64,000 nucleotides of DNA from Spirochaetales bacterium. Its GTDB lineage: Bacteria; Spirochaetota; Spirochaetia; DAHUYW01. The translations under genes were made by a program, and so were the position numbers. How positions within the stretch are numbered: position 1 is the first letter of the stretch; the number at the start of each line of letters is the position of its first letter. The notes below the pieces were generated by a model that did not search any database, was not told the DNA's origin, and saw only the letters and a program-made list of their open reading frames with translations. The stretch lies in the NCBI GenBank assembly GCA_027306915.1, contig DAHUYW010000007.1, positions 81,819 to 145,818 of the forward strand, in the 5' to 3' direction. Positions 8,347-61,752 of the stretch are shown here, in pieces.

Positions 8347-8443
8347 GACCTGTAGCTTCGCGAAGCCTTGACGGGCTGTCAATGAGGAGCCGATGCGCGT
8401 ATCGTGCCCCGTTCGCAGAAGGTATCGTATACTTGCAGGCAGC

Positions 8444-8918: not shown

Positions 8919-9096
8919 CACGAAGCTCGCGCGTCCCTCGCCTTTTGCGCAGCCGCCAGGCAGGGCGCGGCTCGCCGCTCAATGATCCCGCGCCGCTCGC
9001 GAGTCACGGCACAGCTCTCTTCCCCAACTACCCCCTCGCCTGTATGATTCTCCACGAATACCACGACGTCCGAAATCTCCTCCACACAAGGGGCCG

Positions 9097-14761: not shown

Positions 14762-14763
14762 TC

Positions 14764-23260: not shown

Positions 23261-24016
23261 ATGCAGATCGAAGTGTTTTCAACGAAAGACGAGGCGGGAA
23301 CCGCGGCGGCCGAGCGCGGGGCGGCCATTCTCAAGAGCGCCCTGGCGGATGCCGCCGCCCGAGGCGCGAATAAGCCCGCGCGATTCATCGCTGCCACGGG
23401 CGCCTCTCAGTTCGGGATGCTCGATCGCCTGACTGTCGCCGCCGGGATCGACTGGGCGCGCACCGAGATGTTTCACCTCGACGAGTACGTCGGCATAGGC
23501 GCCGATCATCCCGCGAGCTTCCGCCGCTACCTCCTCGAGAGGCTGATCGGCCGGGTGCGTCCCGGCAGGGTGCACCTCATCGAGGGCGACAGCCCTGATC
23601 CCGAGGCCGAGGCGCGCAGGCTTGGCCGGCTTATCGCCGAGGCGCCGGTCGATGTCGCGTTTGTCGGCATCGGGGAAAACGGCCACCTTGCCTTCAATGA
23701 TCCTCCCGCAGACTTCGAGACGGAGGAGCCCTACCTGGTCATGCGGCTCGACGAAGCCTGCCGGAAGCAGCAGGTGGGTGAAGGCTGGTTCGCCTCGGTC
23801 GCAGAGGTGCCCGCCCGGGCCATCTCCATGTCGATTCGCCAGATCATGAAGGCGCGCGCGATTATCTGCACCGTTCCCGACAGGCGGAAGGCCGAGGCGG
23901 TGCGGGCCTGCCTCGCCGAGGGCGCTCCGGTGAGTCCCCTCCATCCTGCCTCGATCCTGAAGCGTCACCCGAACGCCTTCATCTTCCTCGACCGCGACTC
24001 GGCGGCGCTCCTGTAG
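23261..24016 (+). CDS. Glucosamine-6-phosphate deaminase/isomerase family protein
   Basis: 251 residues. Motifs of the NagB family: [21 protein letters not shown], where the DE pair aligns with the catalytic base region, and [22 protein letters not shown], containing the catalytic His. Compared with classical NagB (GHIAFNEP) this has GHLAFNDPP, the form seen in a common sub-family annotated as glucosamine-6-phosphate isomerase. It would convert glucosamine-6-phosphate to fructose-6-phosphate and ammonia. It stands alone, divergent from the SDR gene. Assigning it as nagB proper is not certain. Confidence 0.8.
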
Positions 24017-33912: not shown

Positions 33913-34117
33913 ACGGCCGCGAGGCTCGAAAAACCATCCAAAAAGTACTGTGCAGAGCGCTTCAAGTCTGCTACTATCGAAAAGCAATTTCAGAGTGAGC
34001 GGATAGAGGGGCCCTCCCCGCCGCTTGGTGTGTGAGCTAAATGAACGTTCGTTCTCGAAGAAATTGGACTACCAGAAGCCTTCCCCGCGGCTAGCGAACC
34101 CGCTTTCCGGCTCGCTG

Positions 34118-35236
34118 ATGCCGGAAAGTCAAGAGCAGGGGGGGGAGGACCTTCTTCTCCGGCGCACGGATCTCGCGCGGCGGCGTGTGCACGCGGTGGG
34201 TCGCTCCGTTCGTTGGCGCCTTGTTGCCGCCCTCTATCGCGCTCGGCGCTCCTTCCGCGTGAAGCTTGCTCCGGTGCGCCAAAAGATCCGCAAGAGGATA
34301 GCTCCGATCGGCGTACCGCTCCTGGCTGTAGCGGCCGTGGCTACGCTCGTACTGTCGACCATCCCCAAAGATTCGAACCGCCTCGAAGCCGCGCAGGCTG
34401 CCGGGCAGGGGGTCCAGCTTGCCTCTCTCCTCGACTGGGGCAAGCTTGGCGCCGGAATAACCGTCGCGCGGGGGCTGTCCCCGCTGGTCGCCACCGCGAA
34501 GAGCCCCGACGTCCTCGAGACCACTCCCTACATCGTCCAGTCCGGCAACACCATCTCGGAGATCGGCCGCCAGTTCGGCGTCTCCGACGAGTCGATTATC
34601 AGCATCAACCATGTCGACGACGCCCGCCTGCTGCAGCCGGGCGTCGTGCTGCTCATCCCCAACATGGATGGGGTCCTCTACCGCACCGAATCGGGCGATA
34701 CCCTCGAAAAGATAGCGGAGCACTATCACGTGCCGGAAGCGGCTATCGTTACCGCGAACCGCATGAGCGGAGCCTCGATCCGACCTCATCAGGAGCTCTT
34801 TATTCCGGGCGGTCATATGAGCTCCTACGCCTACCGTCGAGCCCTTGGAACGCTCTTTCTCTTCCCGGCGCAGGGCTACATCACCTCCTACTACGGGATG
34901 CGGCGGGACCCCTTCACGAGGGTCTACAGCTTTCACAATGGGATCGACATCGGGAACTCGATCGGGACGCCGGTCGACGCTTCCGCCGACGGCCAGATCA
35001 TCGCCATCGGCTCGAACCGCATCTATGGGAACTACATTCTCATCGATCACGGAGGGGGCTACCAGAGTCTGTACGCCCATCTCTGGCGGATCTATGTCCG
35101 ATTGTGGCAATGGGTACGCTCGGGCCAGCAGATCGCTGCGATGGGCGACAGCGGCTACAGCACCGGCCCCCATCTCCATTTCTCGATCTTCAAGGACGAC
35201 GTCCCCGTCAATCCGATGATCTACCTGCACTATTGA
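34118..35236 (+). CDS. Membrane-anchored LysM-M23 family metallopeptidase
   Basis: About 372 residues if the ATG at 34118 is the start; the frame stays open back to a TTG at 34025, and neither has a strong ribosome site. A basic cytoplasmic tail is followed by one membrane segment (PIGVPLLAVAAVATLVLS). Two LysM repeats come next (YIVQSGNTISEIGRQFG and YRTESGDTLEKIAEHY). The C-terminal M23 domain has zinc ligands in SFHNGIDIG and TGPHLHFSIF with GMRRDP before them, as in lysostaphin-like endopeptidases. It should cut peptidoglycan cross-bridges in the periplasm or activate an amidase. Its 3' end overlaps the convergent DeoR gene by 7 bases. Confidence 0.88.
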   Translation: MPESQEQGGEDLLLRRTDLARRRVHAVGRSVRWRLVAALYRARRSFRVKLAPVRQKIRKRIAPIGVPLLAVAAVATLVLSTIPKDSNRLEAAQAAGQGVQLASLLDWGKLGAGITVARGLSPLVATAKSPDVLETTPYIVQSGNTISEIGRQFGVSDESIISINHVDDARLLQPGVVLLIPNMDGVLYRTESGDTLEKIAEHYHVPEAAIVTANRMSGASIRPHQELFIPGGHMSSYAYRRALGTLFLFPAQGYITSYYGMRRDPFTRVYSFHNGIDIGNSIGTPVDASADGQIIAIGSNRIYGNYILIDHGGGYQSLYAHLWRIYVRLWQWVRSGQQIAAMGDSGYSTGPHLHFSIFKDDVPVNPMIYLHY

Positions 35237-36018
35237 AGGGGCTGAAGGTCTGACCCGTTGGAGGCCACCACCACCTCCACGCCCGATGTCGCGAGAATGG
35301 GCGTGTAGAGGTCGGGCGGCGGTCGATCGGTGACCAAGGCATCTATCTCGGCGAAGGTACAGAAGGTAACGAGCGAGGCTCGATCGAACTTGAGGCTGTC
35401 GGCGAGGAGAATCCGCCGGTCGGCTACCTGGATGATCGCTCGTTTGATTTCCGCTTCGATCGAGGAGGAGTTGGTGATCCCCTTGGCAAGCGAGATGCCG
35501 GATGCTCCGAGGAAGGCCTTGTGAGCGTTCAGCTTGCGGATCGCCTCGATCGCCTCGATGCCGACGGTCGAGTAGGTCTCCTGCAGGAACTCGCCGCCCA
35601 CCACGATTAGCCTGATACCCCGTTTCGACGCGACCTCGTGGATGACTCCCAGGTTGTGGGTGATGAGCGTGATCCTTCGTCCGGGGTCGAGAAAGCCCAC
35701 CATCGCCGCAGTGGTCGAGCCGGCATCGACGAAGATGATGTCCCCCTCGTCTACCATCTGCGCCGCGCGGCGGCCGATCGCAAGCTTCTCCTCGGTCTGG
35801 AATTTGCTGCGGGCGAAGAACGAGACGAGGTTCTCCTGTTTTGGGCTCGCGATTACCCCGCCGTAGACCTTCTTCGCGATGCCGAGGCCGACAAGCTGCG
35901 CCACGTCCCGCCGGATCGTTATCTTGGAGACGCGAAAGCGGTCACAAAGATCGTCGAGTGAAACGAACTCGTTCTGCATGAGCACGCCCTCGATCTCTTT
36001 GATTCGCTTCAGCCGCAC
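35230..36018 (-). CDS. DeoR/GlpR family transcriptional repressor
   Basis: 262 residues. The N-terminal helix-turn-helix is FVSLDDLCDRFRVSKITIRRDVAQL, the standard DeoR signature, with AKKVYGGVIA after it. The C-terminal DeoR effector domain shows IFVDAGSTTAAMVGFL, ITHNLGVIHEVA and LIVVGGEF, which bind phosphorylated sugars. It is divergent from a seven-gene sugar operon and is very likely its regulator, sensing a phosphorylated intermediate. Candidate TGATCA sites lie in the shared intergenic region. Confidence 0.92.
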   Translation of the reverse strand: MRLKRIKEIEGVLMQNEFVSLDDLCDRFRVSKITIRRDVAQLVGLGIAKKVYGGVIASPKQENLVSFFARSKFQTEEKLAIGRRAAQMVDEGDIIFVDAGSTTAAMVGFLDPGRRITLITHNLGVIHEVASKRGIRLIVVGGEFLQETYSTVGIEAIEAIRKLNAHKAFLGASGISLAKGITNSSSIEAEIKRAIIQVADRRILLADSLKFDRASLVTFCTFAEIDALVTDRPPPDLYTPILATSGVEVVVASNGSDLQPLQ

Positions 36019-36043
36019 GGCCCTCTCCTTGTGTCCTGCCTCT

Positions 36044-36074
36044 CCTGATCAGGCTAATGATAAACTATTGATCA
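36044..36074. promoter_or_regulatory. Candidate DeoR operator: paired TGATCA palindromes
   Basis: A 10-base palindrome CCTGATCAGG is at 36044-36053 and a second TGATCA is at 36069-36074, 23 bases apart (about two helical turns). They lie between the DeoR start and the promoter of the sugar operon, an expected location for a repressor bound as a dimer of dimers. Confidence 0.45.
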
Positions 36075-36079
36075 TGTTA

Positions 36080-36108
36080 TGGACAACTCCTGAACAAGGC
36101 GCTATAGT
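36080..36108 (+). promoter_or_regulatory. Sigma-70-type promoter of the sugar operon
   Basis: TGGACA (36080-36085) and TATAGT (36103-36108) with a 17-base spacer, ending about 75 bases before the aldolase start codon. Both boxes match the consensus at five of six positions. Confidence 0.6.
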
Positions 36109-36183
36109 CTGAGCAAGGGATCTTCTGCCGGATGCTCTCAACGCGCAGCCGGCAGAGACCGTACGTCCCACGAGGAGCTTACC

Positions 36184-37020
36184 ATGAAAGAATATCGGCT
36201 CAATCGACTCTTCAATCCGCAATCGAAGCGGTGCTTCGATGTCGCCGTCGACCATGGCTTCTTCAACGTCAAAGAGGTCCTCGCAGGCATCGAGAACCTG
36301 GAACAGGCGGTTGCGACGATTGTCGCAGCGGCGCCCGATGCGATCCAGCTCACCGTTGGACAGGCCCATCTCCTGCAGGCGGTCCCCGGGAAGACGAAAC
36401 CGGCGCTGGTTCTCCGAACCGACGTTGCCAACGTCTACGGCAAGGAGCTTCCGAGGAGCCTCTTCAGCAGGATCATCGAGGATGCGGTGCTCCAGGCGGT
36501 GCAGCTGGATGCCGCATGTGTGGTCGCCAATCTCTTCCGCATCCCCAACGAGCCGGAGGTGACCGACCAGTGCATCGAGAACATCCTCAGGCTGAAGCCG
36601 TCTTGCGACCACTATCACATGCCGCTCATGGTGGAGCCCCTCGTCTTCCAGCCGAACGCAGCCGCGGGCGGCTACATGGTAGACGGCGATCCGGACAAGA
36701 TAATCCCGCTGGTCCGGCAGGCGGTCGAGCTGGGAGCCGACATCATCAAGGCCGACCCCACCGACAACCCGCGGGACTATCACCTAGTGATCGAGACTGC
36801 AGGGCGGATACCCGTCCTCGTTCGCGGCGGCGGCAAGGTGAGCGATCGCGAGATCCTCGAGCGTACCGCCGAGCTCCTTCGCCAAGGGGCGAGTGGGATC
36901 GTCTACGGCCGAAACGTCATCCAGCACGCCAACCCGGCCGGGATGACGCGCGCGCTCATGAGCCTGCTTCACGAGAATGCGAGCCCCGAGCAGGCGGCGC
37001 GCTTCTTGGCTGCCAGCTGA
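36184..37020 (+). CDS. Class I aldolase, DhnA/LacD/LsrF-like
   Basis: 278 residues forming a TIM barrel. Family hallmarks: FDVAVDHGFF with the Asp-His pair near residue 23, and the likely Schiff-base Lys189 in GADIIKADPTDNP, followed by VLVRGGGKVSD, the phosphate-binding loop. The closest relatives by pattern are DeoC/FbaB (class I fructose-bisphosphate aldolase), tagatose-bisphosphate aldolase and LsrF-type thiolases. It opens the operon that also holds a dehydrogenase, two kinases, a NagB-like protein, an enolase-like protein and a deacetylase, so it is the best candidate for the carbon-carbon cleavage step. Confidence 0.82.
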   Translation: MKEYRLNRLFNPQSKRCFDVAVDHGFFNVKEVLAGIENLEQAVATIVAAAPDAIQLTVGQAHLLQAVPGKTKPALVLRTDVANVYGKELPRSLFSRIIEDAVLQAVQLDAACVVANLFRIPNEPEVTDQCIENILRLKPSCDHYHMPLMVEPLVFQPNAAAGGYMVDGDPDKIIPLVRQAVELGADIIKADPTDNPRDYHLVIETAGRIPVLVRGGGKVSDREILERTAELLRQGASGIVYGRNVIQHANPAGMTRALMSLLHENASPEQAARFLAAS

Positions 37021-37043
37021 GAGGTTGCCGGCACGGCAGTTGA

Positions 37044-37113
37044 CCCGCCGCCAAACGGCGTCTTCTGCGGCTTCTCGCTGGAAATCGGTGGGTGAAAACG
37101 CCGTTTCGGCGGG
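37044..37113 (+). promoter_or_regulatory. Large inverted repeat between aldolase and oxidoreductase genes
   Basis: Left arm 37044-37061 (CCCGCCG, then a two-base bulge CC, then AAACGGCGT) pairs over 16 bases with right arm 37098-37113 (ACGCCGTTTCGGCGGG). The loop is 36 bases. No U-run follows, so it is not a simple terminator. It lies in the 161-base gap, the only long gap inside the operon, and could set the level of aldolase versus downstream mRNA by RNA stability or partial termination. Confidence 0.6.
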
Positions 37114-37181
37114 TACCATTGAGCTTATCAGCACGCTGCCGACGCAGGGCGGTGCCTGCGCGTTTCGCAAAGGGAGGGTTT

Positions 37182-38351
37182 ATGGAAAAGGTACGGTTCG
37201 GGATCATCGGCTGCGGGCTGATGGGCAAAGAGTTCGCGAGCGCCACGGCGCGCTTCTTTCACCTTTCGGGGCTCAACTTCCAACCGGAGATCGTCGCGGT
37301 CTGCGACGTCGAAGCGGGCGCGATGCGATGGTTCCAAGAGCGCCTTCCGACCGTGAAGGAGGCGGTGAGCGATTATCGGCGTCTGATCGAGAGCCGATCC
37401 ATCGATGCGGTCTACTGCGCCGTTCCCCACAACCTCCACGAGCAGATCTATGTCGACGTCATCGACGGTGGGAAGAACCTCCTCGGCGAGAAACCCTTCG
37501 GGATAGACCTCGCGGCGAACCGGACGGTAAACGAGGCCATCGCCCGCCATCCTCGCCAGCTTGTACGCTGTGTATCGGAGATGCCCTACTTCCCTGCAGC
37601 CCAGGCCATCTACCGCTGGGCGCTCGAGGGGCGGTTCGGCACGGTGATCGAGGTCGAGGCGGGTCTATGGAAATCGAGCGACCTCGATCCCATGAAGCCG
37701 ATAAACTGGAAGCGCAGGGCCGAGACGAACGGCGAGTACGGCTGCATGGGCGACCTGGGGCTGCACGCCCTGCATCTTCCCCTGCGGATCGGATGGCATC
37801 CGAGCAACGTTCGCGCCCTGCTCTCGAAGATAGTCACGAAACGGCCCGCAGGAGCGCCGGGAACCCCCGGCGCCGAGACGATGGTTCCCTGCGACACCTG
37901 GGACAACGCCGTGCTCGCCTGCGAGGTGGTAGCAAGCGAAGGCGAGTTTCCGATGCTCCTTTCGATGAAGCGGATCGCCCCCGGACATGCGAACACCTGG
38001 TTCATCCGGGTGCTCGGCACCGAGCTGTCGGCCGAGTTCTCCACTCTCGACCCGAAGCACATCCGCTACCTTCCCTACAAGTCCGGCGACCCCCAGGCTT
38101 GGCGGACCGAGGATTGCGCCATGCCCCCCGCCTATCCTTCGATCACACCGGCCAACCTCGAGTTCGGATTCTCGGACGCCGTTCTGCAGATGTGGGCGGC
38201 CTACGCCGACGAGCTGGTGAACGGGGCCACGATGCGCCAGCCCTTCCGCTGCGCGACCCCCGAGGAGGCGGCGGAAAGCCATCGCGTCTTCACCGCGGCG
38301 CTCGAGTCTCACGCCCGGAGCCGGACCATCGACCTTGCGGCGGAGGGTTAG
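37182..38351 (+). CDS. Gfo/Idh/MocA family oxidoreductase
   Basis: 389 residues from the ATG at 37182, preceded by GGGAGG. The N-terminal Rossmann fold begins KVRFGIIGCGLMGKEFAS, and the catalytic-like EKP is in LLGEKPFGIDLAANR. The C-terminal beta-sheet domain contains CMGDLGLHALHLPLRIG with the conserved Asp and His residues of this family. These NAD(P)-dependent enzymes oxidise hydroxyls of sugars or cyclitols. Second gene of the sugar operon; substrate unknown. Confidence 0.92.
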   Translation: MEKVRFGIIGCGLMGKEFASATARFFHLSGLNFQPEIVAVCDVEAGAMRWFQERLPTVKEAVSDYRRLIESRSIDAVYCAVPHNLHEQIYVDVIDGGKNLLGEKPFGIDLAANRTVNEAIARHPRQLVRCVSEMPYFPAAQAIYRWALEGRFGTVIEVEAGLWKSSDLDPMKPINWKRRAETNGEYGCMGDLGLHALHLPLRIGWHPSNVRALLSKIVTKRPAGAPGTPGAETMVPCDTWDNAVLACEVVASEGEFPMLLSMKRIAPGHANTWFIRVLGTELSAEFSTLDPKHIRYLPYKSGDPQAWRTEDCAMPPAYPSITPANLEFGFSDAVLQMWAAYADELVNGATMRQPFRCATPEEAAESHRVFTAALESHARSRTIDLAAEG

Positions 38352-38354
38352 GCC

Positions 38355-39479
38355 GTGGCGGGGCGGGCGATCGTCGCCGGACACATCTGCCTGGATATCA
38401 TCCCGCGGTTGATCGAAAGCGGCGAGGAGCTCACCGAAATGCTCGCGCCGGGGCGGGTCAGGGAGATCGAGTCGACCCTCCTTGCGACGGGAGGAGCCGT
38501 CGCCAATGTTGGAACCGCCCTCTTCCGGCTCGGCATACCCGTGCGGCTGGCGGGTAGGATCGGGGAGGATCTCTTTGGACGGACCATCTCCGGCCTCCTG
38601 GCCGCGGTCGAACCTTCCCTGCCGGAAGGGCTCACCGCATCGCCCGCAGAGGCGACCTCCTTCAGCATCGTGCTCTCGGCGCGCGGAAGCGACCGCACCT
38701 TTCTCCACTTTCCCGGAGCAAACGACGCCTTCCGGGCCGATGATCTCCCGGCCGACAGGTTGGCAGGGTGCGACCTTCTCCATTTCGGCTACCCTCCGTC
38801 GATGCGCACGATGTACCAGGACGACGGCGCCGAGCTCGTTGCCCTCCTCAAACGGGCGAAGGCTTCCGGCCTCACCACCTCGCTCGACATGTCCTTTCCG
38901 CCGCCTGGTTCGGAGGCTTCGCGGGTCGATTGGAGGGCGATTCTCCGGCGCGCGCTTCCGCTCGTTGACCTGTTTATTCCGGGCGTCGAGGAGATATCTT
39001 TTATGGTGCGGGGGGAGGGCTCACTTGAAGGCGGGCCGCCTCGTCTCGAGGAGCTTCTCCAGCCAAGCCACCTTCGCCGGGTCGCCGCAGAGCTTCTCGA
39101 GATGGGTTGCGCGTTGTGCGCCCTCAAGCTCGGATCGGAGGGGCTCTACGTGAGGACGAGCGGCGACCCGCTGCGGATCGCCGGCATGGGGCGCTGCGCT
39201 CCGCGCGATCCTGCGGGCTGGACCGGCAGGGAGCTCCACGGCCCCTGCTTCTCGGTCACGGTGGCAGGCACGACCGGGGCTGGCGACTGCACCGCGGCCG
39301 GCTTTATCGCCGGGCTCCTGCACCGCCTTTCGCTCGATGAGGCGGTGACGAGCGCGCTGGCCGCGGGGGCCTACGCCGTGGAGGGGATCGAGGCAACCGG
39401 CACGATCCCCGGTTGGGATGCGCTCAGGCGGCGCATCGCCTCCGGATGGCCGCGGGCGACCTCCCGTCTATCGCTGTAG
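38355..39479 (+). CDS. PfkB family carbohydrate kinase
   Basis: 374 residues from a GTG at 38355, three bases after the previous stop. The ribokinase-type N-terminus has IVAGHICLDIIPRL and TGGAVANVGTALFRLGIPVRLAGRIGEDLFG, the first family signature. The second signature near the C-terminus is VAGTTGAGDCTAAGFIAGLL with the catalytic Asp of GAGD. It phosphorylates a sugar or sugar acid hydroxyl with ATP. Third gene of the operon. Confidence 0.93.
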   Translation: MAGRAIVAGHICLDIIPRLIESGEELTEMLAPGRVREIESTLLATGGAVANVGTALFRLGIPVRLAGRIGEDLFGRTISGLLAAVEPSLPEGLTASPAEATSFSIVLSARGSDRTFLHFPGANDAFRADDLPADRLAGCDLLHFGYPPSMRTMYQDDGAELVALLKRAKASGLTTSLDMSFPPPGSEASRVDWRAILRRALPLVDLFIPGVEEISFMVRGEGSLEGGPPRLEELLQPSHLRRVAAELLEMGCALCALKLGSEGLYVRTSGDPLRIAGMGRCAPRDPAGWTGRELHGPCFSVTVAGTTGAGDCTAAGFIAGLLHRLSLDEAVTSALAAGAYAVEGIEATGTIPGWDALRRRIASGWPRATSRLSL

Positions 39480-39499
39480 CCGCTTGCATGGAGGAGTGA

Positions 39500-40459
39500 A
39501 TGGACTTTCTTTCCACGTTTGAGGGCTCCTACGCGGGCTCGTTCTACCCGCAAGGGTGGGACTACCGCCGCATCAAGGCGATCACCGCCCTTGGGCCCGA
39601 GGAGTTCGCGGTGCCGCAGCCGTTCTGGCATCCCGACTTCGTTCCTGAGATCTGCCGCGACCCCTTCGGCGGCTACGAGACTATGAATGCCAAGATGGGC
39701 TACGAGATCTTTCGCGCCGTGGAGGACTCGGCGCGGGAGAGGCGTCCGCTTGCGCTCATCCTTCCCGTCGGGCCGATGGGAATGTACCGGTGGGCAATCT
39801 ACTTCTCGCGGCGAAGCAGTCTCTCCTGGGGCCACGTCCACACCTTCACCATGGACGAGTGGTCCGACGCAGGCGGCCGTACGATGGAACGAGGCACCGG
39901 AGCAAGCTTTCAGGAGATCATGGAGGGCTCGTTCTTCGGCCCACTGGGCGAGCTTACCGTTCCGACCTCGCAGCGTCACTTCGCAACCCGCCAGATGCTC
40001 CCTCGCTACCCCGAGGAAATAGCCCGCCTGCGCGGCAGCGGGGCACGCCTGGTGGCGGTCTACGGCATCGGGAGAAGCTGTCACATCGCCTTCTGGGAGC
40101 CTCACTTTGCCGCGGAGTTCCCAGACTTGGCGAGCTGGCGCGGCCAGGAGTACCGCCTCGCTGCGCAGTTACACCCCCTTTCGATCGAGCAGAACTCGCT
40201 CCACTCATTTGCGAGCCGCCTTACGCTCGTGCCCCTTCGGGCGAACACGATCGGTCCCGGGCTTTTTCTTCAAGCGGACTGGTGCATCGGAGGGGCCGAC
40301 GGCGCGCATGGTGCTCTCAACTGGCAGGGCCAGCCGATCTGGATGACCCTTCGCTACGGCCCCGACCCGTGGGTACCGAGCTCCTTCATGCCGACCCTCG
40401 CAGGAAGGCTTTTTGTTTCGGAGAAGCTTGGCGGCCCGCTCGTCCCCGAGGCGAACTAG
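39500..40459 (+). CDS. Divergent NagB/RpiA-fold protein (sugar-phosphate isomerase-like)
   Basis: 319 residues, longer than the ~250 of ordinary NagB. Homology rests on two motifs: TFTMDEWSDAGG (Asp119-Glu120), which aligns with the catalytic MDEYxGL of NagB, and VYGIGRSCHIAFWEP, which aligns with GxGxDGHIAFNEP. In the second, His195 and Glu200 are kept but the usual Asp before the Gly-His is Ser193 and the Gly is Cys. The N-terminal region LPVGPMGMYRWAI replaces the usual glycine-rich phosphate loop. It probably binds an aminosugar- or ketose-phosphate with altered chemistry. Fourth gene of the sugar operon. Confidence 0.68.
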   Translation: MDFLSTFEGSYAGSFYPQGWDYRRIKAITALGPEEFAVPQPFWHPDFVPEICRDPFGGYETMNAKMGYEIFRAVEDSARERRPLALILPVGPMGMYRWAIYFSRRSSLSWGHVHTFTMDEWSDAGGRTMERGTGASFQEIMEGSFFGPLGELTVPTSQRHFATRQMLPRYPEEIARLRGSGARLVAVYGIGRSCHIAFWEPHFAAEFPDLASWRGQEYRLAAQLHPLSIEQNSLHSFASRLTLVPLRANTIGPGLFLQADWCIGGADGAHGALNWQGQPIWMTLRYGPDPWVPSSFMPTLAGRLFVSEKLGGPLVPEAN

Positions 40460-40469
40460 GAAGTCTCGG

Positions 40470-41516
40470 ATGCGCGAGCTCGATATCGAGGCGTCTGGAG
40501 CGCTCGAGCGCTACCTGATCGAGCACGGGAGGGTGCCGGCAGGGGATGCGGGACGGCTCTCGATTTCCGTGCTTCGGGGCGGGGTTTCCAACCGGACCGT
40601 GCGCGTCCGGCTTCCCGGCGGCGAGGAGTGGGTCGTCAAACAGGCGCTCGCGAAGCTTCGCGTATCGGTGGACTGGTATGCGGATCCGGCGCGCATCCAC
40701 CGCGAGGCGCTTGGCATGGAGGCCTTGCGCGCGCTTGCTCCGCCGGGAGCGGTCGTGAGGCTCCTCTTCGAGGATGAGGAAAGCCACCTGCTTGCGATGG
40801 AGGCGGTGCGCGAGCCATTCGAGAATTGGAAGGAGGCGCTCCTCGCCGGGCGTATCGCCGACGAGGCCATCGACCAATTTGCCCGGCTCCTTGCGGCCAT
40901 CCATGCCGGCGGCGCTCGGAGCCGGCTGCTCCTCTCGCGCGACTTCGCCGACAAATCGCTCTTCGCGGCGCTGCGCGTGGAGCCCTATTATACCTATACC
41001 GCCGGTCGGCTCCCCGAGGCGGCGGATTTCCTGCGCGCCCTCGCGGCGGAGGTCATGGAGGCGAGCCAAACGTTAGTGCACGGCGACTACAGCCCCAAAA
41101 ACATCCTCATTCACGATGGGAGGCTCGTCCTCCTCGATCACGAGGTGATTCACCTTGGGGATCCGGCCTTTGACCTCGGCTTCTCCCTCACCCATTTTCT
41201 TTCCAAGGCGCATCACCTCCGATATAGGCGAAGCGCCTTCGCACGCGGCGCCCGGCGCTACTGGGCAGAGTACGCGCGGGCGGTGGCGGCCGAGCCCTTT
41301 GCGGGCGAGGAGCTCGAGCGGAGGGCGGTTCGCCATACCCTCGGCTGTCTCCTCGCGCGTGCAGCGGGAAGGTCCCGACTGGAGTATCTTAGCGAGGGTG
41401 AGCGCTCGCGGCAGGCGAAGGCTGCCATCCGACTCGTGGCGCAGCCTCCCGCGCGCGTCGACGAGCTCGTCGGGCGGTTTGTCGAGTCGATAGGAGAGGG
41501 CGATGGCAGCGATTAG
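40470..41516 (+). CDS. Aminoglycoside-phosphotransferase-fold small-molecule kinase
   Basis: 348 residues from the ATG at 40470 after AGGAAG. The protein-kinase-like fold is shown by GGVSNRTVRVRLPGGEEWVVKQAL (nucleotide loop and Lys57), LVHGDYSPKNILI (catalytic loop with Asp206 and Asn211) and VLLDHEV (metal Asp223). The element RVSVDWYADPARIHREA resembles methylthioribose-kinase and related sugar kinases rather than antibiotic-resistance enzymes. It is the second kinase of the operon and overlaps the enolase-like gene by 14 bases. Confidence 0.85.
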   Translation: MRELDIEASGALERYLIEHGRVPAGDAGRLSISVLRGGVSNRTVRVRLPGGEEWVVKQALAKLRVSVDWYADPARIHREALGMEALRALAPPGAVVRLLFEDEESHLLAMEAVREPFENWKEALLAGRIADEAIDQFARLLAAIHAGGARSRLLLSRDFADKSLFAALRVEPYYTYTAGRLPEAADFLRALAAEVMEASQTLVHGDYSPKNILIHDGRLVLLDHEVIHLGDPAFDLGFSLTHFLSKAHHLRYRRSAFARGARRYWAEYARAVAAEPFAGEELERRAVRHTLGCLLARAAGRSRLEYLSEGERSRQAKAAIRLVAQPPARVDELVGRFVESIGEGDGSD

Positions 41517-42807
41517 CCAGGTGAGCGCGCGTGAGATTCTCGACAGCCGGGGGCGTCCCACCGTCGAGGCCACCTGCGTGCTTTCAGGCGGGGCGACCGG
41601 CATCGCCTCCGTTCCCTCCGGCCGCTCCACCGGGAAGTCGGAGGCCGTGGAGCTTCGTGACGGCGATCCCAGGCGCTACCGAGGACTGGGGTGCCTGCGG
41701 GCGACTGCAAACGTCAACGGCGAGATGGCGGCCGCCCTCGTCGGCAGCGAGCTAACCGATCAGGCCGCCCTTGATCGAAGGCTTATCGAGCTCGACGGCA
41801 CTCCCAACAAGGCGCGGCTAGGCGCCAACGCCATTCTCGCCGTCTCGGTCGCCTTTGCGCGGGCGCAGGCGGCCGCGGGCCGCCTGCCGCTCTACCGCCA
41901 CTTTGCGAGCATCGCAGGGCAGTCGTTGCTGGCCGAAGCCTCGCGCCCGCCGCAGCTCCCGCGGCTGACCATCAATCTCTTCAGCGGCGGTAAGCACGCC
42001 GGAGCCCAGGTCTCGGTCCAGGATGTCCTCATCGTACCGCTCTCCCCGCAGACGATCGACGGCTCGCTCGTCATGATGTACAACATCTACCAGACTGCCG
42101 CCGAAATGACCCTCGAGCGGTATGGCATGCGCCTCCTTACGGCGGACGAGGGCGGGCTCGCTCCGCCCTTCCCTGACACGACAACGATGATCGAAAACGC
42201 GGTCGAGGCAATCGAGCGGGCGGGCTACCGGGCCGGGATCGACGCGTCGCTCGCAATCGATGTCGCCGCAAGCCACTTCTACGAAGGCGGCGGCGCAGAG
42301 GCGGGGCGCTACCATGTCGACGGCAGGTCGCTTGCGCCAGAGGAGATGATCGACCTGATCGTCTCCTGGATCGAGCGTTACCCGATCGTGAGCGTGGAGG
42401 ACGGGCTCGACGAAGAGGACTGGGCGCACTGGCCGCTTCTCGAGCGGGCCGTCGACCGGAGGGCGCTGGTCCTCGGCGACGATCTCCTGTGCACGAACCC
42501 TGCCCGTATTCGCCGGGCCGCAGCCGCCGACGCGTGCGACTCGCTTCTCCTGAAGGTGAACCAAATCGGGACCCTCACCGAGGCCGCCGCCGCCTTGCGC
42601 CTGGCGCGGGCCGCCCGCTTTCAGGTGTCGATAAGCGTGCGCAGCGGCGAAACCGAGGACAACTGGGCGGCCGACCTTGCCGTAGGATTCCAGGCCGACC
42701 AGTTCAAGAACGGCTCGATCACACAGTCGGAGCGCCTTGCAAAATACAACCGACTCCTTGCCATCGAGCAGGAGTGCGGCTGGCGTGTCCGACCCTGGAG
42801 GGCATGA
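41503..42807 (+). CDS. Divergent enolase homologue
   Basis: 434 residues, co-linear with enolase. Kept: metal ligands (Asp253 in LAIDVAAS, Glu299 in VSVEDGLDEEDW, Asp326 in GDDLLCTN), the catalytic base Lys351 in LLKVNQIGTLTE, the Glu216 in ADEGGLAPP, and His165 in GGKHAG. Changed relative to every ordinary enolase I know: PSGASTG is PSGRSTG (Arg41), the Glu of MQEF is Asp174, and the invariant His of SHRSGETED is Val379 (SVRSGETED). The gene sits inside a sugar operon, not with housekeeping glycolysis. It may act on a phosphorylated sugar-acid analogue of 2-phosphoglycerate, or be the genome's only enolase with altered kinetics. Confidence 0.8.
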   Translation: MAAISQVSAREILDSRGRPTVEATCVLSGGATGIASVPSGRSTGKSEAVELRDGDPRRYRGLGCLRATANVNGEMAAALVGSELTDQAALDRRLIELDGTPNKARLGANAILAVSVAFARAQAAAGRLPLYRHFASIAGQSLLAEASRPPQLPRLTINLFSGGKHAGAQVSVQDVLIVPLSPQTIDGSLVMMYNIYQTAAEMTLERYGMRLLTADEGGLAPPFPDTTTMIENAVEAIERAGYRAGIDASLAIDVAASHFYEGGGAEAGRYHVDGRSLAPEEMIDLIVSWIERYPIVSVEDGLDEEDWAHWPLLERAVDRRALVLGDDLLCTNPARIRRAAAADACDSLLLKVNQIGTLTEAAAALRLARAARFQVSISVRSGETEDNWAADLAVGFQADQFKNGSITQSERLAKYNRLLAIEQECGWRVRPWRA

Positions 42808-43586
42808 TGGGGAAAACTGTTCTCGCGGTCTCCGCCCACCCCGACGACATCGAGTGGGGGATGGGGGGGACACTTCTGCTGCTGCGGCGGGCGGGCTGCG
42901 AACTCCACTACATGACCGTGGCAAACGGTTGCTACGGGACCGAGACGCTCACCCGCGAGGAGATCATCGCAGTGCGTCACGAGGAGGCACAGGCGGGGGC
43001 TGCGGCCCTCGGCGCGACCTTTCACGAGAGCATCACCGACGATTTCAATATTCTCTATGTTCAGGAACAGATCCGGAAAGTCGCCGCGGTGGTTCGCGAG
43101 GTCGCGCCCGACATCATCCTCACCCATCCGCTCGAGGACTACATGGAAGACCACATGAATGCGGCCCGGCTCGCCTGCTCGGCCGCCTTCATCCGGGCTT
43201 CGGCGCACTACGTCACCGATCCGCCGCGACCGGCGGTGGTCACGCCGGTGTGCATCTACCATTCCCTGCCCCATTCGCTTCACGACAGGATGAGGCGCCC
43301 GGTCGTCCCGGAGCTCTACGTCGACATCGCGACCGTCATCGACGAAAAGAGGAAGGCAATCTCCTGCCACAAGAGCCAGGAGTCATGGCTGTCCTCGACC
43401 CAAGGAACGCAGACTCTCGCCGACAACATGGAGCAAGACGCCCGCAGGATCGGGGGGATGACACGGAGATTTGCCCTCGCCGAAGGATGGAGCCGCCACC
43501 TCCACGTCGGCTACTCAAATGAAGAGATCGATCCGCTCTCCGATCTTCTCGCCGAGTTCGTCTACCAGCCGGCTGCGCACGCCTAG
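42804..43586 (+). CDS. PIG-L family deacetylase
   Basis: 260 residues from the ATG at 42804, overlapping the preceding stop (ATGA). The zinc motif AHPDD is in VSAHPDDIEWGMGGTLLLL and a third ligand is the His in MEDHMNAARLACSAAF. Relatives remove acetyl groups from N-acetylglucosamine-type substrates (GlcNAc-PI, GlcNAc-inositol, bacillithiol precursors, diacetylchitobiose). In this operon it most simply deacetylates an N-acetylated sugar feeding the pathway. Last gene of the operon. A convergent gene begins 50 bases away. Confidence 0.9.
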   Translation: MMGKTVLAVSAHPDDIEWGMGGTLLLLRRAGCELHYMTVANGCYGTETLTREEIIAVRHEEAQAGAAALGATFHESITDDFNILYVQEQIRKVAAVVREVAPDIILTHPLEDYMEDHMNAARLACSAAFIRASAHYVTDPPRPAVVTPVCIYHSLPHSLHDRMRRPVVPELYVDIATVIDEKRKAISCHKSQESWLSSTQGTQTLADNMEQDARRIGGMTRRFALAEGWSRHLHVGYSNEEIDPLSDLLAEFVYQPAAHA

Positions 43587-43636
43587 CAGCTGGGGCGAGC
43601 TTCGATTGTCGACTGCGAAAATCGGCACATCTCGCC

Positions 43637-44254
43637 TCATCCGCCCGTGGCCGGCACCGTTGCGGCCTCGGTTGCGCGGAGAAGCTCATCGTAGGAGAAA
43701 ACCGCGCGGAACTGCGGGAATTCGCGGGTGATAGCCTCGGGCGCCCGAAAGAGAATGCCGGAGTCGGCCTCTTGAAGCATCCCGATGTCGTTGTACGAGT
43801 CGCCGGCTGCAACGACCGAGAAACCGATCGAACGGAAGGCGGCCACGGCCTTCCGTTTTCCCTCCCGCTGGCGCAGGCAGTAGTCCGTGATCGTGCCGTT
43901 CTCCGCAAGGACCAGACTGTTGCAGAAAAGGGAAGGCCAGCCAAGCATTCGCATGAGGGGTGTCGCGAATTCGGCGAAGGTATCCGAAAGGATGATGACC
44001 TGCCAGCGGGAGCGCAGCTCGTCAAGAAAGGCCTTGGCTCCCGGAAGCGGGGAGACCGTCCCAATGACTGCCTGAATATCCTGCAGGGTATACCCGTGCT
44101 CGGCGAGGATGCGGATGCGCTCTTTCATCAGCTTGTCGTAATCGGGCTCATCGCGGGTCGTTCGTCGGAGCTCGTCGATCCCGGTTGCTTGCGCAAAGGC
44201 GATCCAAATCTCCGGCACCAGGACTCCCTCAAGATCCAGACAGACCATGTGCAT
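43637..44254 (-). CDS. thrH: ThrH-like HAD phosphatase (phosphoserine/homoserine phosphotransferase)
   Basis: 205 residues from the ATG at 44254 with GTGGAG upstream; the frame opens earlier but this gives the exact family length. Residues MVCLDLEGVLVPEIWIAF contain the HAD nucleophile Asp (DLEG) and the PEIW motif typical of ThrH. Also present are RTTRDEPDYDKLMKERI, VIILSDTFAEFATPLM (motif II Ser/Thr), and AAGDSYNDIGMLQEADSGILF (motif IV). ThrH of Pseudomonas dephosphorylates phosphoserine and can move the phosphate to homoserine, bypassing normal serine/threonine steps. Convergent with the sugar operon. Confidence 0.92.
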   Translation of the reverse strand: MHMVCLDLEGVLVPEIWIAFAQATGIDELRRTTRDEPDYDKLMKERIRILAEHGYTLQDIQAVIGTVSPLPGAKAFLDELRSRWQVIILSDTFAEFATPLMRMLGWPSLFCNSLVLAENGTITDYCLRQREGKRKAVAAFRSIGFSVVAAGDSYNDIGMLQEADSGILFRAPEAITREFPQFRAVFSYDELLRATEAATVPATGG

Positions 44255-44333
44255 GACATACTCCACGTGCGGGGTGCAGGCTAAGACAAACATTATCTCG
44301 GAATCGTCGGGCCGTGGCAAGATTAAGCGCGCT

Positions 44334-45242
44334 TCACTGCGGCTCCGGCGAAGCGATCTTCGATTTTTCTCTTCTTCCGGCCGAGATGATCACAAAGGCC
44401 GCGCCGGCAACGATGAGGAGCGAGGCCGCGTAGAAGGCGGCGGTCGGAAGCTCTCGGAAGAAAAGGTAACCGAGCACCCCTGCGAAGATGAACTGCCCCA
44501 GATTGACGAGCGAGGTGATTTGCGGGCGGAGGACCTTCATCGCATAGTTCAGCGCCGAGTGCCCGATGATCGTGGCTGCAACCGCAAGCCCGGCCACCGC
44601 AACCAGATCGGCGGCGGAGTAGTGGGTCGTGAAAGGGTTGACCCGAAAGAGAGCGACCGCGAAACAGAAGAGGCCGCCCGTGTAGTACAGCGGGACAAGA
44701 TAGAGCCAGATGCTCCTCTGTACGTTGTTCTTTCGTCCGAGCACGAGGTAGAGAGCAAAGAAGAGCATCGAGACGAAGGAAATGGAGTCGCCCGCGAAGT
44801 AGCTCCGATCAAAGCGGAAATCGGAAAATCCGAGAAGCACGACCCCTGACATCGCGACAAGCGTACCGATCACCTCGCGCGCATTTGCCTTCTCGCGAAG
44901 CAGAAGGTAGAGGTAAAAGGGCATGACTACGGGCACCAGGTTGACAATGAGGGTGCTGTTGGCCGCGGCGGTAAGCCGAGCGCCCGCGGTCCAGCTCATG
45001 AAATGCAGCCCGAGGATGAGCCCGGGCACCACGGACGGCGCGATAAGCTTCACGTTGAAGGGGAGCCGGTGGCGACGCAGCTCACGACCGAAGATGGGGG
45101 TGAGCAGGACCGCGGCCAATAGAAGTCGAAGGGAGGCCAGAAGGACGGGATCGATGGTGCATGCCTTGATGAAAATCACGGAGGTCGAAGCCGCGAAAGC
45201 CCCGAAAAGAAGCACGAGCAGAGAACCCGCCATGAAAGCCAC
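44334..45242 (-). CDS. EamA/DMT family transporter
   Basis: 302 residues, ten hydrophobic segments in two repeats of five, as in RhaT/RarD-like drug/metabolite transporters. The start may be GTG 45242 or the ATG at 45233, nine bases later. Family-typical stretches include SVIFIKACTIDPVLLASLRLLLAA in helix 2 and GLAVAATIIGHSALNYAMKVLRPQITSLV in the second repeat, the latter the well conserved EamA end. Substrate not predictable; known members export amino acids or metabolites. It is upstream of thrH and may be co-transcribed with it. Confidence 0.9.
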   Translation of the reverse strand: MAFMAGSLLVLLFGAFAASTSVIFIKACTIDPVLLASLRLLLAAVLLTPIFGRELRRHRLPFNVKLIAPSVVPGLILGLHFMSWTAGARLTAAANSTLIVNLVPVVMPFYLYLLLREKANAREVIGTLVAMSGVVLLGFSDFRFDRSYFAGDSISFVSMLFFALYLVLGRKNNVQRSIWLYLVPLYYTGGLFCFAVALFRVNPFTTHYSAADLVAVAGLAVAATIIGHSALNYAMKVLRPQITSLVNLGQFIFAGVLGYLFFRELPTAAFYAASLLIVAGAAFVIISAGRREKSKIASPEPQ

Positions 45243-45337
45243 TATGCTCTATCCCGAAAGGGAGGGTCAAGGAGAGCTCGTACCTGAGAAGGGCAATCGG
45301 GAGGGATATTTCAATCCCGACATCCAGGTTAATCTAC

Positions 45338-45366
45338 TTGCATTTTTCGGACTACCACCGTAGTAT
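45338..45366 (+). promoter_or_regulatory. Promoter of the adenylate cyclase cluster
   Basis: TTGCAT (45338-45343), a 17-base spacer, and TAGTAT (45361-45366), 60 bases upstream of the first cyclase start codon, in the gap divergent from the EamA gene. Confidence 0.5.
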
Positions 45367-45425
45367 ACACTGGCGAACGTCGCTCGGTCTTTCCCATACG
45401 AGGGTAGAGGAGAGCTTGTCTATCC

Positions 45426-47126
45426 ATGAGCACTCTTGTTGATCGTATTTTTGGGCAAAGGATCAGGGGAGTCCGGGTGGTTCCTCTGGTCCTGAAAATC
45501 GTCGTCATCTTCACGGTACTGCTGCTGGTTTCGAACTTCGTTTCGAATTACATCAACCTCATGCTCAACAGAGGGCAGCTGCTGAAGCTCACGAATCAGC
45601 TCTTGGTCAAGGACCTCACCGAGCTTTCTATCTTTGCATCGAATCAATATCAGATCTACATTTTCAACAACGATCTCCCGGGGGCCGTCAAGAGTATCGA
45701 AGCCAGCGCCATGAAGAACCTCCAACGCCAAAGGTCCGTCGCTCTCGGCGTGAAGCCAAACGGGGACATCTTCTTTCAGGCCTCCAAGACTGTGCACGTC
45801 AACGAGTTCACCGATCAGGCAGCTCTCGCGAAGATGCTGAAGGCGCAGGAGAGTGGGACGCCCGAGGGCTCGCTCCTGTTCACGCTGAATGGGAGAGAGT
45901 ACATCGGGGTGTTCAAGTACAGCGAGCAGTGGAAGATGTTCATCATTCGGGCGGAGGAGCTCAACGAGTTCTATCAAGACTCCTGGAACATCTTCTGGAC
46001 GACCTCGGTCATCATCGTTGTTATCACCCTCATCTGCGCCGTGCTCGGCGTTTTCCTGATCCGCTACATGCTTCGCTTTGTGCGAGTCATCACGCAAGGG
46101 ATCATGGACATGCAGAAACGGCAGACGATGGACATTATCGATCTGAAGGGGGCGCCCAACGATGACATAACCTTCCTCGGGGTTGCCCTGAACTCGACGA
46201 CAAGCACGATCGATAACCTCATGGATATCTTCCGTAAGTTTGTCACCACCGACCTGGTCCAGAAGGCCTACCGCGAACGGGAGATTCGGCTTGAGGGGGC
46301 CCAGCGCGATCTGACGGTGCTCTTCACGGACATCAGGAGCTTCACCTACATGACCGAGGCTCTGGGAAATGACATCATCAAGCTCCTCAATCTTCACTAC
46401 GACCAGGCGATTCATCATATCCAGGAGAATGGCGGCGTCGTCGGATCCATAATCGGAGACGCCCTTCTCGCGGTCTTCGGATCCCTCGAAGGCTACGGCT
46501 CCAACAAGTCATATCTGGCAGTGAGATCAGCCTACCAGGTCCAGGAGGTCGCGGCAGCACTGCGGGAAGACATGACCAAGCGGCGCGAAGAGATCGTGAA
46601 GAGGCATGGCGCGCTTTCCGCCACGGACGAGAGGGTCTACCGGGCGGTTCTCCTCGAGGTTGGAGTGGGAATCGACGGCGGTGAGGTATTCTACGGAACC
46701 ATCGGTTCGTACGAGCGCATGACCAATACGGTAATCGGTGACAACGTCAATTCCGCCTCACGTTTGGAGGGGCTCACGCGGTTCTACAAGGTGCCCGTAG
46801 TAGTTTCGGAATACGTGAGGGAAGAAGTTGAGCGTGACTTCAACGACTACCTTTTCATGGAAATCGACCGAGTGCAGGTCAAAGGCAAGACGCTCGGGAA
46901 ACGAATCTACTGGCCTATATTGAAGAAGAATATGGACGAGGAGCTCGACAACGACGTGAAGCTTTTCTCCGAAGGACTTTCCCTCTATTACGAGGGGCAG
47001 TGGCCGGCAGCTTACAAGATGTTCGCGAAGTGCACGCTTCCCGTCGCTGACATCTTCCGCGACAGGACGAAGAACAACACCTCTCCGAAAGGGTGGGACG
47101 GCGTATGGGCAATGACGATGAAGTAG
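45426..47126 (+). CDS. Membrane-bound class III adenylate/guanylate cyclase
   Basis: 566 residues. A short basic N-terminus leads to a first membrane helix (VPLVLKIVVIFTVLLLVSN), an extracytoplasmic sensor of about 150 residues with a PAS/Cache-like centre (GREYIGVFKYSEQWKMFIIRA), a second helix (FWTTSVIIVVITLICAVLGVF), a HAMP-like linker and the cyclase domain. Metal-binding Asps are in VLFTDIRSFT and SIIGDALLAVFG; the transition-state Asn-Arg pair is in GDNVNSASRLEG and the Lys in VQVKGKTLGKR. Substrate selection (cAMP vs cGMP) cannot be fixed by eye, but the K-containing loop favours ATP. First gene of a four-gene cluster; it overlaps the next by 22 bases. Confidence 0.87.
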   Translation: MSTLVDRIFGQRIRGVRVVPLVLKIVVIFTVLLLVSNFVSNYINLMLNRGQLLKLTNQLLVKDLTELSIFASNQYQIYIFNNDLPGAVKSIEASAMKNLQRQRSVALGVKPNGDIFFQASKTVHVNEFTDQAALAKMLKAQESGTPEGSLLFTLNGREYIGVFKYSEQWKMFIIRAEELNEFYQDSWNIFWTTSVIIVVITLICAVLGVFLIRYMLRFVRVITQGIMDMQKRQTMDIIDLKGAPNDDITFLGVALNSTTSTIDNLMDIFRKFVTTDLVQKAYREREIRLEGAQRDLTVLFTDIRSFTYMTEALGNDIIKLLNLHYDQAIHHIQENGGVVGSIIGDALLAVFGSLEGYGSNKSYLAVRSAYQVQEVAAALREDMTKRREEIVKRHGALSATDERVYRAVLLEVGVGIDGGEVFYGTIGSYERMTNTVIGDNVNSASRLEGLTRFYKVPVVVSEYVREEVERDFNDYLFMEIDRVQVKGKTLGKRIYWPILKKNMDEELDNDVKLFSEGLSLYYEGQWPAAYKMFAKCTLPVADIFRDRTKNNTSPKGWDGVWAMTMK

Positions 47127-60471: not shown

Positions 60472-61752
60472 ATGAGTTCAACTCCAGAGTTATCCGGTAA
60501 CAAGAATCCCGGAGAGCGGCCGCAGACTACCCTCGTCCGACAGGCTGAGATAGTCATAAGCAACGTCCTGCGCATCGGAGTCTTCCTGAGCGCCGCCGTC
60601 ATCGTGGTGGGCTCCGTATTGTACTATGCGGTCGGGAATGCGGGGCCGACCTTAAGCTATCCCCACACGCTCGGCGAGGTCCTCCCGGCATTGCAGGCAG
60701 GCAACTTCCAGGCGATCATCACCCTTGGGCTGCTCATCCTTCTCGCGACTCCGATTGCCCGAGTCGCCGTCTCGATCGTCGCCTTTCTTCTCGAGGGCGA
60801 CTGGCGCTATGTCGTTGTAACGACCATCGTGCTTATCCTGCTTCTTGGCAGCGTCTTTATCCTCGGCGCCCTCTTCGGTCACGGCCCCACCGAGACCATG
60901 CGCCCCGTCGGGCTCGGCGATTTTCTGATCATTGCCGGGGTATCGGTGATCGCCGGGTTGATCGGTTCGCTGGTCGGCCTCGGCGGCGGACTTCTCGTGG
61001 TTCCGCTTCTCACGCTGGTCTTCGGAGTCTATCCGGAGGTGGCCGTGGGAGTCTCGATCGTCTCGGTCATTGCGACCTCAAGCGGCGCCGCCGCGGCATA
61101 CGTGCGCGACGAGATGACCAACCTTCGCGTGGGAATGTTCCTGGAGATTGCCACCACGATCGGCGCGATCTGCGGAGCCTTCCTCGCGATCGTCATTGCA
61201 CCCGCCTTTCTTTTCGTAATCTTCGGGGCGGTTCTCCTCGTCTCCGCGGTACCGCTGATCGTGAAGATAGGCGAAGAGCTGCCGTCGGGAGTCAGGAGCG
61301 ACCGATGGGCCCGCAGCCTGCGGTTGGGCTCGCACTATCCCGATGCGACCCTCGGCCGGCTGGTCGACTACGAGGTGACCAACGTCCCTATGGGCTTTGG
61401 GCTCATGAGCATTGCCGGAGTGCTTTCGGGGCTTCTCGGCATCGGAAGCGGAACCTTCAAGGTTCTCGCGATGGATGTCGCAATGCGTCTTCCCATGAAA
61501 GTGTCCACGACGACAAGCAACTTCATGATCGGGGTTACCGCAGCAGCGAGCGCCGGCATCTACTTTCAGCGAGGGGACATCAACCCGCTTTACGCCGCGC
61601 CGGTTGCAGTCGGAGTGCTCGTGGGGGCCACCGCAGGCGCCAAGGTCCTTACCCGATTCACCAACGCGACAATTCGGAAGGTCTTCATCCCCATCATGGT
61701 GATCGTGGCGGCGGAGATGCTCATTCGCGGCGTTGCCCAGCTTCTGCATTGA
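60472..61752 (+). CDS. DUF1634-TauE/SafE (TSUP) fusion membrane protein
   Basis: 426 residues. The first ~140 hold three membrane helices of DUF1634 style (VISNVLRIGVFLSAAVIVVGSVLYY, ITLGLLILLATPIARVAVSIVAF, FILGALFGH). From about residue 145 comes the TauE/SafE permease: FLIIAGVSVIAGLIGSLVGLGGGLLVVPLLTL and, in the second half, GVLSGLLGIGSGTFKVLAMDV and NFMIGVTAAASA, the paired TSUP repeats. In other genomes the two parts are usually separate neighbouring genes. TSUP proteins move sulfur or organic anions; the ligand is not shown. The 3' end overlaps the convergent GlpR gene by 32 bases. Confidence 0.85.
   Translation: MSSTPELSGNKNPGERPQTTLVRQAEIVISNVLRIGVFLSAAVIVVGSVLYYAVGNAGPTLSYPHTLGEVLPALQAGNFQAIITLGLLILLATPIARVAVSIVAFLLEGDWRYVVVTTIVLILLLGSVFILGALFGHGPTETMRPVGLGDFLIIAGVSVIAGLIGSLVGLGGGLLVVPLLTLVFGVYPEVAVGVSIVSVIATSSGAAAAYVRDEMTNLRVGMFLEIATTIGAICGAFLAIVIAPAFLFVIFGAVLLVSAVPLIVKIGEELPSGVRSDRWARSLRLGSHYPDATLGRLVDYEVTNVPMGFGLMSIAGVLSGLLGIGSGTFKVLAMDVAMRLPMKVSTTTSNFMIGVTAAASAGIYFQRGDINPLYAAPVAVGVLVGATAGAKVLTRFTNATIRKVFIPIMVIVAAEMLIRGVAQLLH

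Follow-up and report, generated by a model that had tools for sequence, protein, structure and literature searches.

A seven-gene operon of a Spirochaetales bacterium combines two recurrent gene partnerships and may degrade an N-acetylated amino sugar

The seven-gene operon considered here raises the question of which compound it degrades, and by which route. It lies on the forward strand at 36184-43586 of a 64,000-nt stretch (positions 81,819 to 145,818 of contig DAHUYW010000007.1, assembly GCA_027306915.1) from a Spirochaetales bacterium; this whole stretch is called the window below, and coordinates refer to it unless a locus or contig is named. The operon consists of seven open reading frames (ORFs), all in the same direction, which Pfam and NCBIfam models assigned to a DhnA-type class I aldolase, a Gfo/Idh oxidoreductase, a PfkB kinase, a NagB-like protein (NagBL), an APH-fold kinase, an enolase and a PIG-L protein. 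These are the families named in a preliminary description of the DNA, which recognised no pathway in them. Among the pathways scored by models we likewise matched no characterised one, because the enolase is the sole operon protein above an NCBIfam cut-off (TIGR01060, 429.6 against 300 bits). The operon is made of two gene partnerships, each recurring in distant bacteria and across phyla: PIG-L with NagBL (module A), and the APH kinase with a variant enolase (module B). With a probability of roughly one half, we read it as an operon under DeoR control that breaks down an N-acetylated amino sugar in free (unphosphorylated) form, an N-acetylhexosamine being the most likely.

As a complete unit the operon looks lineage-specific, since the window and one Spirochaetales metagenome-assembled genome, clean1700 (G001; locus L001), the closest relative found, are the only sequences in which all seven genes turned up together. 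The G001 sequence, split between two contigs at the APH/enolase junction, is 78-80% identical to the window at the DNA level across most of 30062-55352. The DeoR repressor and the seven genes share 73-92% protein identity between the two genomes, with ratios of nonsynonymous to synonymous substitution (dN/dS) of 0.06-0.24. The Gfo/Idh gene of G001 (L001, from 6959) carries one in-frame TAG at codon 344, whereas the window copy is intact; the TAG may be real or a sequencing error. Apart from L001, none of the 80 best NagBL loci held the full seven-gene set. Among 98 genomes (G001 and its relatives) none but G001 combined a close match to NagBL with one to the operon enolase, and besides G001 none of them had an enolase match more than 47% identical to the operon enolase, short pieces aside (the variant positions were checked in seven). 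The search for the same gene set that the preliminary description had proposed thus gave a divided result: the set as a whole turned up only in the window and G001, but parts of it recur elsewhere, as two modules of linked genes. Gfo/Idh was considered as a marker of the operon and rejected: at E <= 1e-40 it occurs in three of 392 genomes including G001, and its next relatives (G023 and G332, 51-52% identical) sit without other window genes except DeoR-type regulators.

The linkage of module A was traced through relatives of NagBL in GTDB species genomes, where at least 583 of at least 588 pattern matches were confirmed and the best 80 loci were kept; this choice favours close relatives, and many of the gut Clostridia among the loci are not independent. 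They come from Planctomycetota, Clostridia, Paenibacillus, Acidobacteriales, Armatimonadota, Hydrogenedentota, Omnitrophota, Kiritimatiellae and others. A PIG-L gene on the same strand lies within 5 kb of NagBL at 51 of the 80 loci and within 300 bp at 43. By chance, one would be expected in about 1% of 11-kb neighbourhoods, given the 49 PIG-L matches that 14 NagBL genomes contain in about 63 Mb. Where 5 kb was available on both flanks (40 of the 80 loci), PIG-L was present in 29 cases. Near NagBL there are also genes for Gfo/Idh (20 loci), PfkB (19), class II aldolase (10), a xylose-isomerase-like barrel (7), a mannitol-dehydrogenase-family protein (6) and a NagA-type deacetylase (3). These tallies derive from tblastn; in our home-made ORF calls of the neighbourhoods nine NagBL loci carry no NagBL call, and several neighbour names (permeases, SDR, aldo-keto) were assigned by eye. 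In two of the 14 NagBL genomes, NagB and PIG-L domains share one ORF (G099, 657 aa; G108, 670 aa). The PIG-L and NagB-like pair recurs across phyla, at part of the loci together with sugar kinases and aldolases. For this reason, of the degradative readings offered in the preliminary description, the breakdown of an N-acetylated amino sugar is the best supported.

A free N-acetylhexosamine as substrate is pointed to by two of these loci, L036, where a NAGLU-type alpha-N-acetylglucosaminidase (6837-9125; PF05089, 62.5 bits) is encoded directly upstream of the PIG-L-NagBL pair, and L053 (bacterium 1XD21-13), where a sugar-binding transport protein (PF13407) stands immediately ahead of NagBL. A gene clustering with the L053 permease (a permease named by eye) is present at L086-L088. 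L053 also encodes, in the vicinity of NagBL, aldolase and PfkB, a glycerate kinase (TIGR00045, 469 bits), and therefore glycerate is a possible intermediate in that cluster; glycerate alone as substrate would not account for a dedicated enolase. Two further neighbourhoods are recorded here. A DUF4838 protein directly precedes NagBL at L048. At L045 (7972-15676) the order is DegT aminotransferase, PIG-L, NagBL, a NagA-like protein (161.9 against 225.65 bits), Gfo/Idh and a DapA-like protein, followed by a putative aldo-keto reductase and an SDR protein (both named by eye), so that PIG-L and NagA-like deacetylase types stand beside one NagBL; L022 and L060 have similar beginnings.

The NagBL protein (39500-40459, +) has the NagB fold, with no Pfam match at 1e-3 and 30.7 bits to the NagB model TIGR00502 (cut-off 236.9). 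Its family is large, with 6,061 clusters at E <= 1e-80 among 7,999 scored; none of the 120 clusters listed has a Pfam domain, and the database names, where any are given, are glucosamine-6-phosphate deaminase or isomerase. Residues were counted in 34 sequences, the window protein and those of 33 of the 80 loci. The catalytic deaminase residues D72, H143 and E148, and also E73, are present in all 34, whereas D141, R172, K208 and two turn residues, found in 19 of 19 canonical NagB proteins, are present in none, the gap at R172 being dependent on the alignment. We take R172, K208 and the two turn residues to be the 6-phosphate site of NagB, and their absence favours an unphosphorylated substrate. 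Three arginines (R192, R219 and R240) are invariant in NagBL. Canonical NagB above cut-off occurs in eight and NagA in five of the 14 NagBL genomes, and an outright replacement of NagA and NagB by PIG-L and NagBL is for this reason not general. A second NagB-family protein, closer to true NagB (113 bits to TIGR00502), is encoded in the window outside the operon (23261-24016, +). The PIG-L/LmbE-family metallohydrolase (42801-43586, +), a predicted N-deacetylase, keeps the HPDD motif at residue 13 and the DH motif (DHMNA) at residue 117, and scores 83.3 bits to PF02585 (cut-off 28.2).

Module B comprises the APH-fold kinase (40464-41516, +), assigned by Pfam and NCBIfam, and the enolase (41503-42807, +); their genes overlap by 14 bp, and those of the enolase and PIG-L by 7 bp. 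The window enolase has E168 changed to D and H373 to V (yeast numbering), with the other catalytic residues and the Mg(I) ligands kept. In the best 120 of 4,246 matches at E <= 1e-120, the window included, D stands at position 168 in all 120, and position 373 is V in 110 and A in 10; both E168 and H373 are kept in seven of seven canonical spirochaete enolases. All 120 keep the Mg(I) ligands D246, E295 and D320, as well as E211, K345, R374, S375, K396 and H159; S39 is kept in 111 and replaced by A in nine. According to PMC4450660, K345 is the base and E211 the general acid of enolase, S39 is an Mg(II) ligand, and the equivalent of E168 touches 2-phosphoglycerate. Sixteen positions separate 23 variant enolases completely from 21 canonical ones, and three more do so in part, one or two of the canonical proteins departing at some of them. 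The changes in active-site motifs are N to S before and D to G within the GGxHA loop, E to D, F to L or Y in DEGGF, E to H in AASEFY, H to V or A in SHRSGET, and T to N, V or I in KTGS. That the operon enolase is a separate paralogue linked to the APH kinase goes beyond the preliminary description, as does the loss of the presumed phosphate-site residues from NagBL.

The tie to the kinase was seen from both sides. At E <= 1e-130 the variant was found in five of 294 Planctomycetota and one of 297 Acidobacteriota genomes, and in four of these six, G746 of the Acidobacteriota set among them, the APH gene lies directly upstream (elsewhere in G808 and G882). The kinase was found at E <= 1e-50 in 20 of 392 Planctomycetota genomes, in 15 of which the next gene on that strand encodes an enolase. 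These 15 enolases are 41-61% identical to that of the window, and every one has E168 changed to D and H373 to A. In the remaining five there is no enolase in the 1.5-kb flank, and in G923, G808 and G882 none in a longer stretch either. A role as housekeeping enolase is unlikely for the variant, as all seven variant genomes checked also hold an ordinary enolase (671-718 bits, against 413-474 for the variant). In G001, contig C256 carries two adjoining enolase-like pieces (14641-15812) in addition to the ordinary enolase and the operon variant. Models of defence systems gave no match at 1e-3 to the APH and enolase proteins.

We tentatively propose, as a possible rather than a probable function, that the pair forms a two-step dehydratase driven by phosphorylation, in which the kinase would attach phosphate to the 2-hydroxyl of a sugar acid with a longer chain than glycerate, after which the variant would eliminate water to give an enol phosphate, an analogue of phosphoenolpyruvate. 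The chemistry of the variant would be that of enolase (2-phospho-carboxylate to enol phosphate) on another, kinase-made substrate. No description of such a kinase-enolase dehydratase was met in the literature searched, where among the papers listed neither a PIG-L/NagB-like pair nor an APH-enolase pair appeared in titles and the beginnings of abstracts, no search having named an APH-fold kinase with enolase. Of the parts of the operon, the kinase-enolase pair is the surprising one and the likeliest to be new.

The first three genes complete the operon. The DhnA/LsrF-type (DeoC/DhnA) class I aldolase (36184-37020, +; PF01791, 117.6 bits) keeps the lysine at the LsrF IIK position, presumably the catalytic residue. 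The Gfo/Idh oxidoreductase (37182-38351, +) has levoglucosan dehydrogenase as its best NCBIfam model (74.1 bits, cut-off 650); its start is most likely at 37182, hence a 161-bp gap behind the aldolase. The PfkB sugar kinase (38355-39479, +) keeps the GAGD motif; among NCBIfam models it scores best with IolC, and its best match in the Protein Data Bank (PDB) is the 2-keto-3-deoxygluconate (KDG) kinase 1v19 (56.6 bits).

Put together, these proteins suggest the following route for a free N-acetylated amino sugar. PIG-L would strip the acetyl group, and NagBL would open the ring and deaminate and isomerise the amino sugar to a ketose and ammonia with no need of a 6-phosphate; the ketose would be phosphorylated by PfkB and split by the class I aldolase into C3 units. 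Gfo/Idh would oxidise or reduce the sugar with NAD(P). In module B the APH kinase would phosphorylate the 2-hydroxyl of a hydroxy acid arising in the pathway, and the enolase variant would turn the 2-phosphate into an enol phosphate by loss of water, the chemistry being that of ordinary enolases and the substrate one that fits the changed pocket. We infer the substrate, the order of the steps and the places of Gfo/Idh and module B; gene order, conservation, the linkage of each module and the residues kept and lost are observed.

Several points weigh against this route. A same-strand PIG-L within 5 kb is missing at 29 of the 80 NagBL loci (some contigs are short), and at some loci NagBL has no sugar genes around it. 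In the window the APH and enolase genes are inserted between NagBL and PIG-L; the window PIG-L and PfkB are only 28-36% and 25-35% identical, respectively, to those of NagBL neighbours (L001 aside), and its aldolase is of class I, whereas the NagBL-neighbour aldolases are of class II. Deacetylation is not certain, because the best PDB match of PIG-L is a 4-oxalmesaconate hydratase (62.9 bits), ahead of deacetylases. A literature search for phosphate binding by R172 and K208 gave no supporting paper. The link of module B to amino sugars depends on the window and G001, because in the Planctomycetota and Acidobacteriota stretches read the module lies apart from recognisable sugar operons. The role of Gfo/Idh in the route is a guess, and the enzymatic reactions of all the operon proteins are predictions from sequence.

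The main rival explanation keeps the same genes and changes the substrate to an acidic amino sugar, for example an N-acetyl-hexosaminuronate, with an ending through KDG and its 6-phosphate (KDPG). PIG-L would deacetylate it, NagBL would yield a ketouronate and Gfo/Idh would reduce this to an aldonate, which the APH kinase and enolase variant would dehydrate via the 2-phosphate; PfkB would then be the KDG kinase, and the class I aldolase would cleave KDPG. This route uses each of the seven enzymes once and agrees with the KDG kinase as best PDB match of PfkB, with the invariant arginines of a NagBL devoid of the presumed 6-phosphate residues, and with the mannitol-dehydrogenase-family genes at six of the 80 NagBL loci, a family that includes fructuronate reductase. 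However, the aldolases at ten NagBL loci are of the class II ketose-bisphosphate type and not KDPG aldolases, L068, the reductase relative that was tested, has its best score as mannitol-1-phosphate dehydrogenase, and no uronate genes could be recognised next to the operon. We consider the route as a whole unlikely.

A conventional phosphorylated pathway for N-acetylglucosamine (GlcNAc) or N-acetylgalactosamine (GalNAc) would have the APH kinase make the 6-phosphate, PIG-L and NagBL stand in for NagA and NagB, PfkB act as 6-phosphofructo- or tagatokinase, and the enolase be a spare glycolytic copy. The best model for the DeoR protein, AgaR, and the database names of NagBL fit such a pathway. 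It is nevertheless improbable in our view, given the loss of the presumed phosphate-site residues in 34 of 34 NagBL, a true NagB already present in eight of the 14 NagBL genomes, and the coordinated changes of an enolase that has an ordinary counterpart alongside in seven of seven genomes. An inositol-like or thiol-like route for a cyclitol or glycoconjugate, in which PIG-L would be a conjugate amidase or a hydratase, is suggested by low scores of PfkB to IolC (75.8 bits), of Gfo/Idh to IolG (48.2 bits) and of PIG-L to BshB1 (102.5 bits) and by its likeness to a GalB-type hydratase, yet the three scores are under their cut-offs (300, 355 and 182.5 bits) and NagBL keeps its deaminase residues, which makes this route very unlikely; nothing points to the aminocyclitol named in the preliminary description, the iol scores being far below cut-off.

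The control region agrees with the preliminary description. The divergent DeoR-family repressor was confirmed at 35230-36018 (-); its best NCBIfam model, AgaR of the aga/GalNAc regulon, gives 154.8 bits without reaching the cut-off of 260, and its dN/dS against L001 is 0.11. A sigma-70-like promoter (TGGACA-17-TATAGT, 36080-36108, +) is present. The match is weak by itself, because the pattern occurs at three sites in 34500-45000, where shuffled sequences give 1.2 on average, but its core is kept with identical spacing in L001, the one relative compared, and there forms a conserved intergenic block with an adjoining imperfect 18-bp direct repeat. The repeat (36046-36063 and 36069-36086, copies 72% alike) overlaps the -35 element and is a candidate DeoR operator. 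The seven genes include no transporter, as had been stated; the nearest candidate, an EamA-like permease, is encoded on the opposite strand at 44334-45242 and has only a sub-cut-off match to TIGR00950. An Rfam scan of 34000-46000 gave no family at gathering score. A ThrH phosphoserine phosphatase/homoserine phosphotransferase (43637-44320, -; 306.8 bits) is convergent with the operon end and kept in G001. Further away, the window encodes a TIGR00300 nickel-pincer-nucleotide ornithine cyclodeaminase (11928-13154, +; 512.8 bits) and a second DeoR-family regulator (61721-62527, -) adjoining a type 2 glycerol-3-phosphate oxidase-like gene (below cut-off).

These results suggest that proteins labelled in databases as glucosamine-6-phosphate deaminase (NagBL) and enolase (the variant) may have other functions. 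The enolase variant is the rarer of the two in the searched genomes, and two positions, often with a kinase partner, tell it from the glycolytic enolases compared. If the pair does act on longer sugar acids, enolase chemistry would have been put to use on a new substrate, to which the partner gene points, and the true-enolase branch would gain a second class of natural substrate. Both proteins of the pair resemble ordinary soluble enzymes.

Compared with known systems, the operon shares with the nagA-nagB and aga pathways the predicted logic of deacetylation, deamination and isomerisation, phosphorylation and aldol cleavage, and a DeoR-type regulator as in aga. Unlike them, it has PIG-L instead of NagA, a NagBL lacking the presumed 6-phosphate residues, no PTS gene, and a class I DhnA aldolase with an additional Gfo/Idh, APH kinase and enolase variant. 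The NagB-PIG-L fusion of the NF002557/PRK02122 type holds in one protein the two domains that are separate genes here; its NagB half is above the NagB cut-off in G099 and G108, in contrast to the window NagBL. According to PMC4101496, the diacetylchitobiose deacetylase of Thermococcus (TkDAC) is a PIG-L-family enzyme of chitin degradation; it differs in its disaccharide substrate, and its likeness to the operon PIG-L is one of family. Among named proteins of known structure, methylthioribose kinase (2olc, 22.8 bits by profile) is the one closest to the APH proteins, an unnamed protein, 2pyw, scoring higher at 35, yet the operon kinase is far under the cut-off of the corresponding model (TIGR01767, 39.9 against 275 bits). 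Finally, the enolase variant resembles glycolytic enolase (TIGR01060) in family score, Mg(I) ligands, K345, E211, R374, S375, K396 and H159, and is set apart from it by E168 to D, H373 to V or A, the further motif changes, the frequent APH partner and the ordinary enolase with which it shares a genome.

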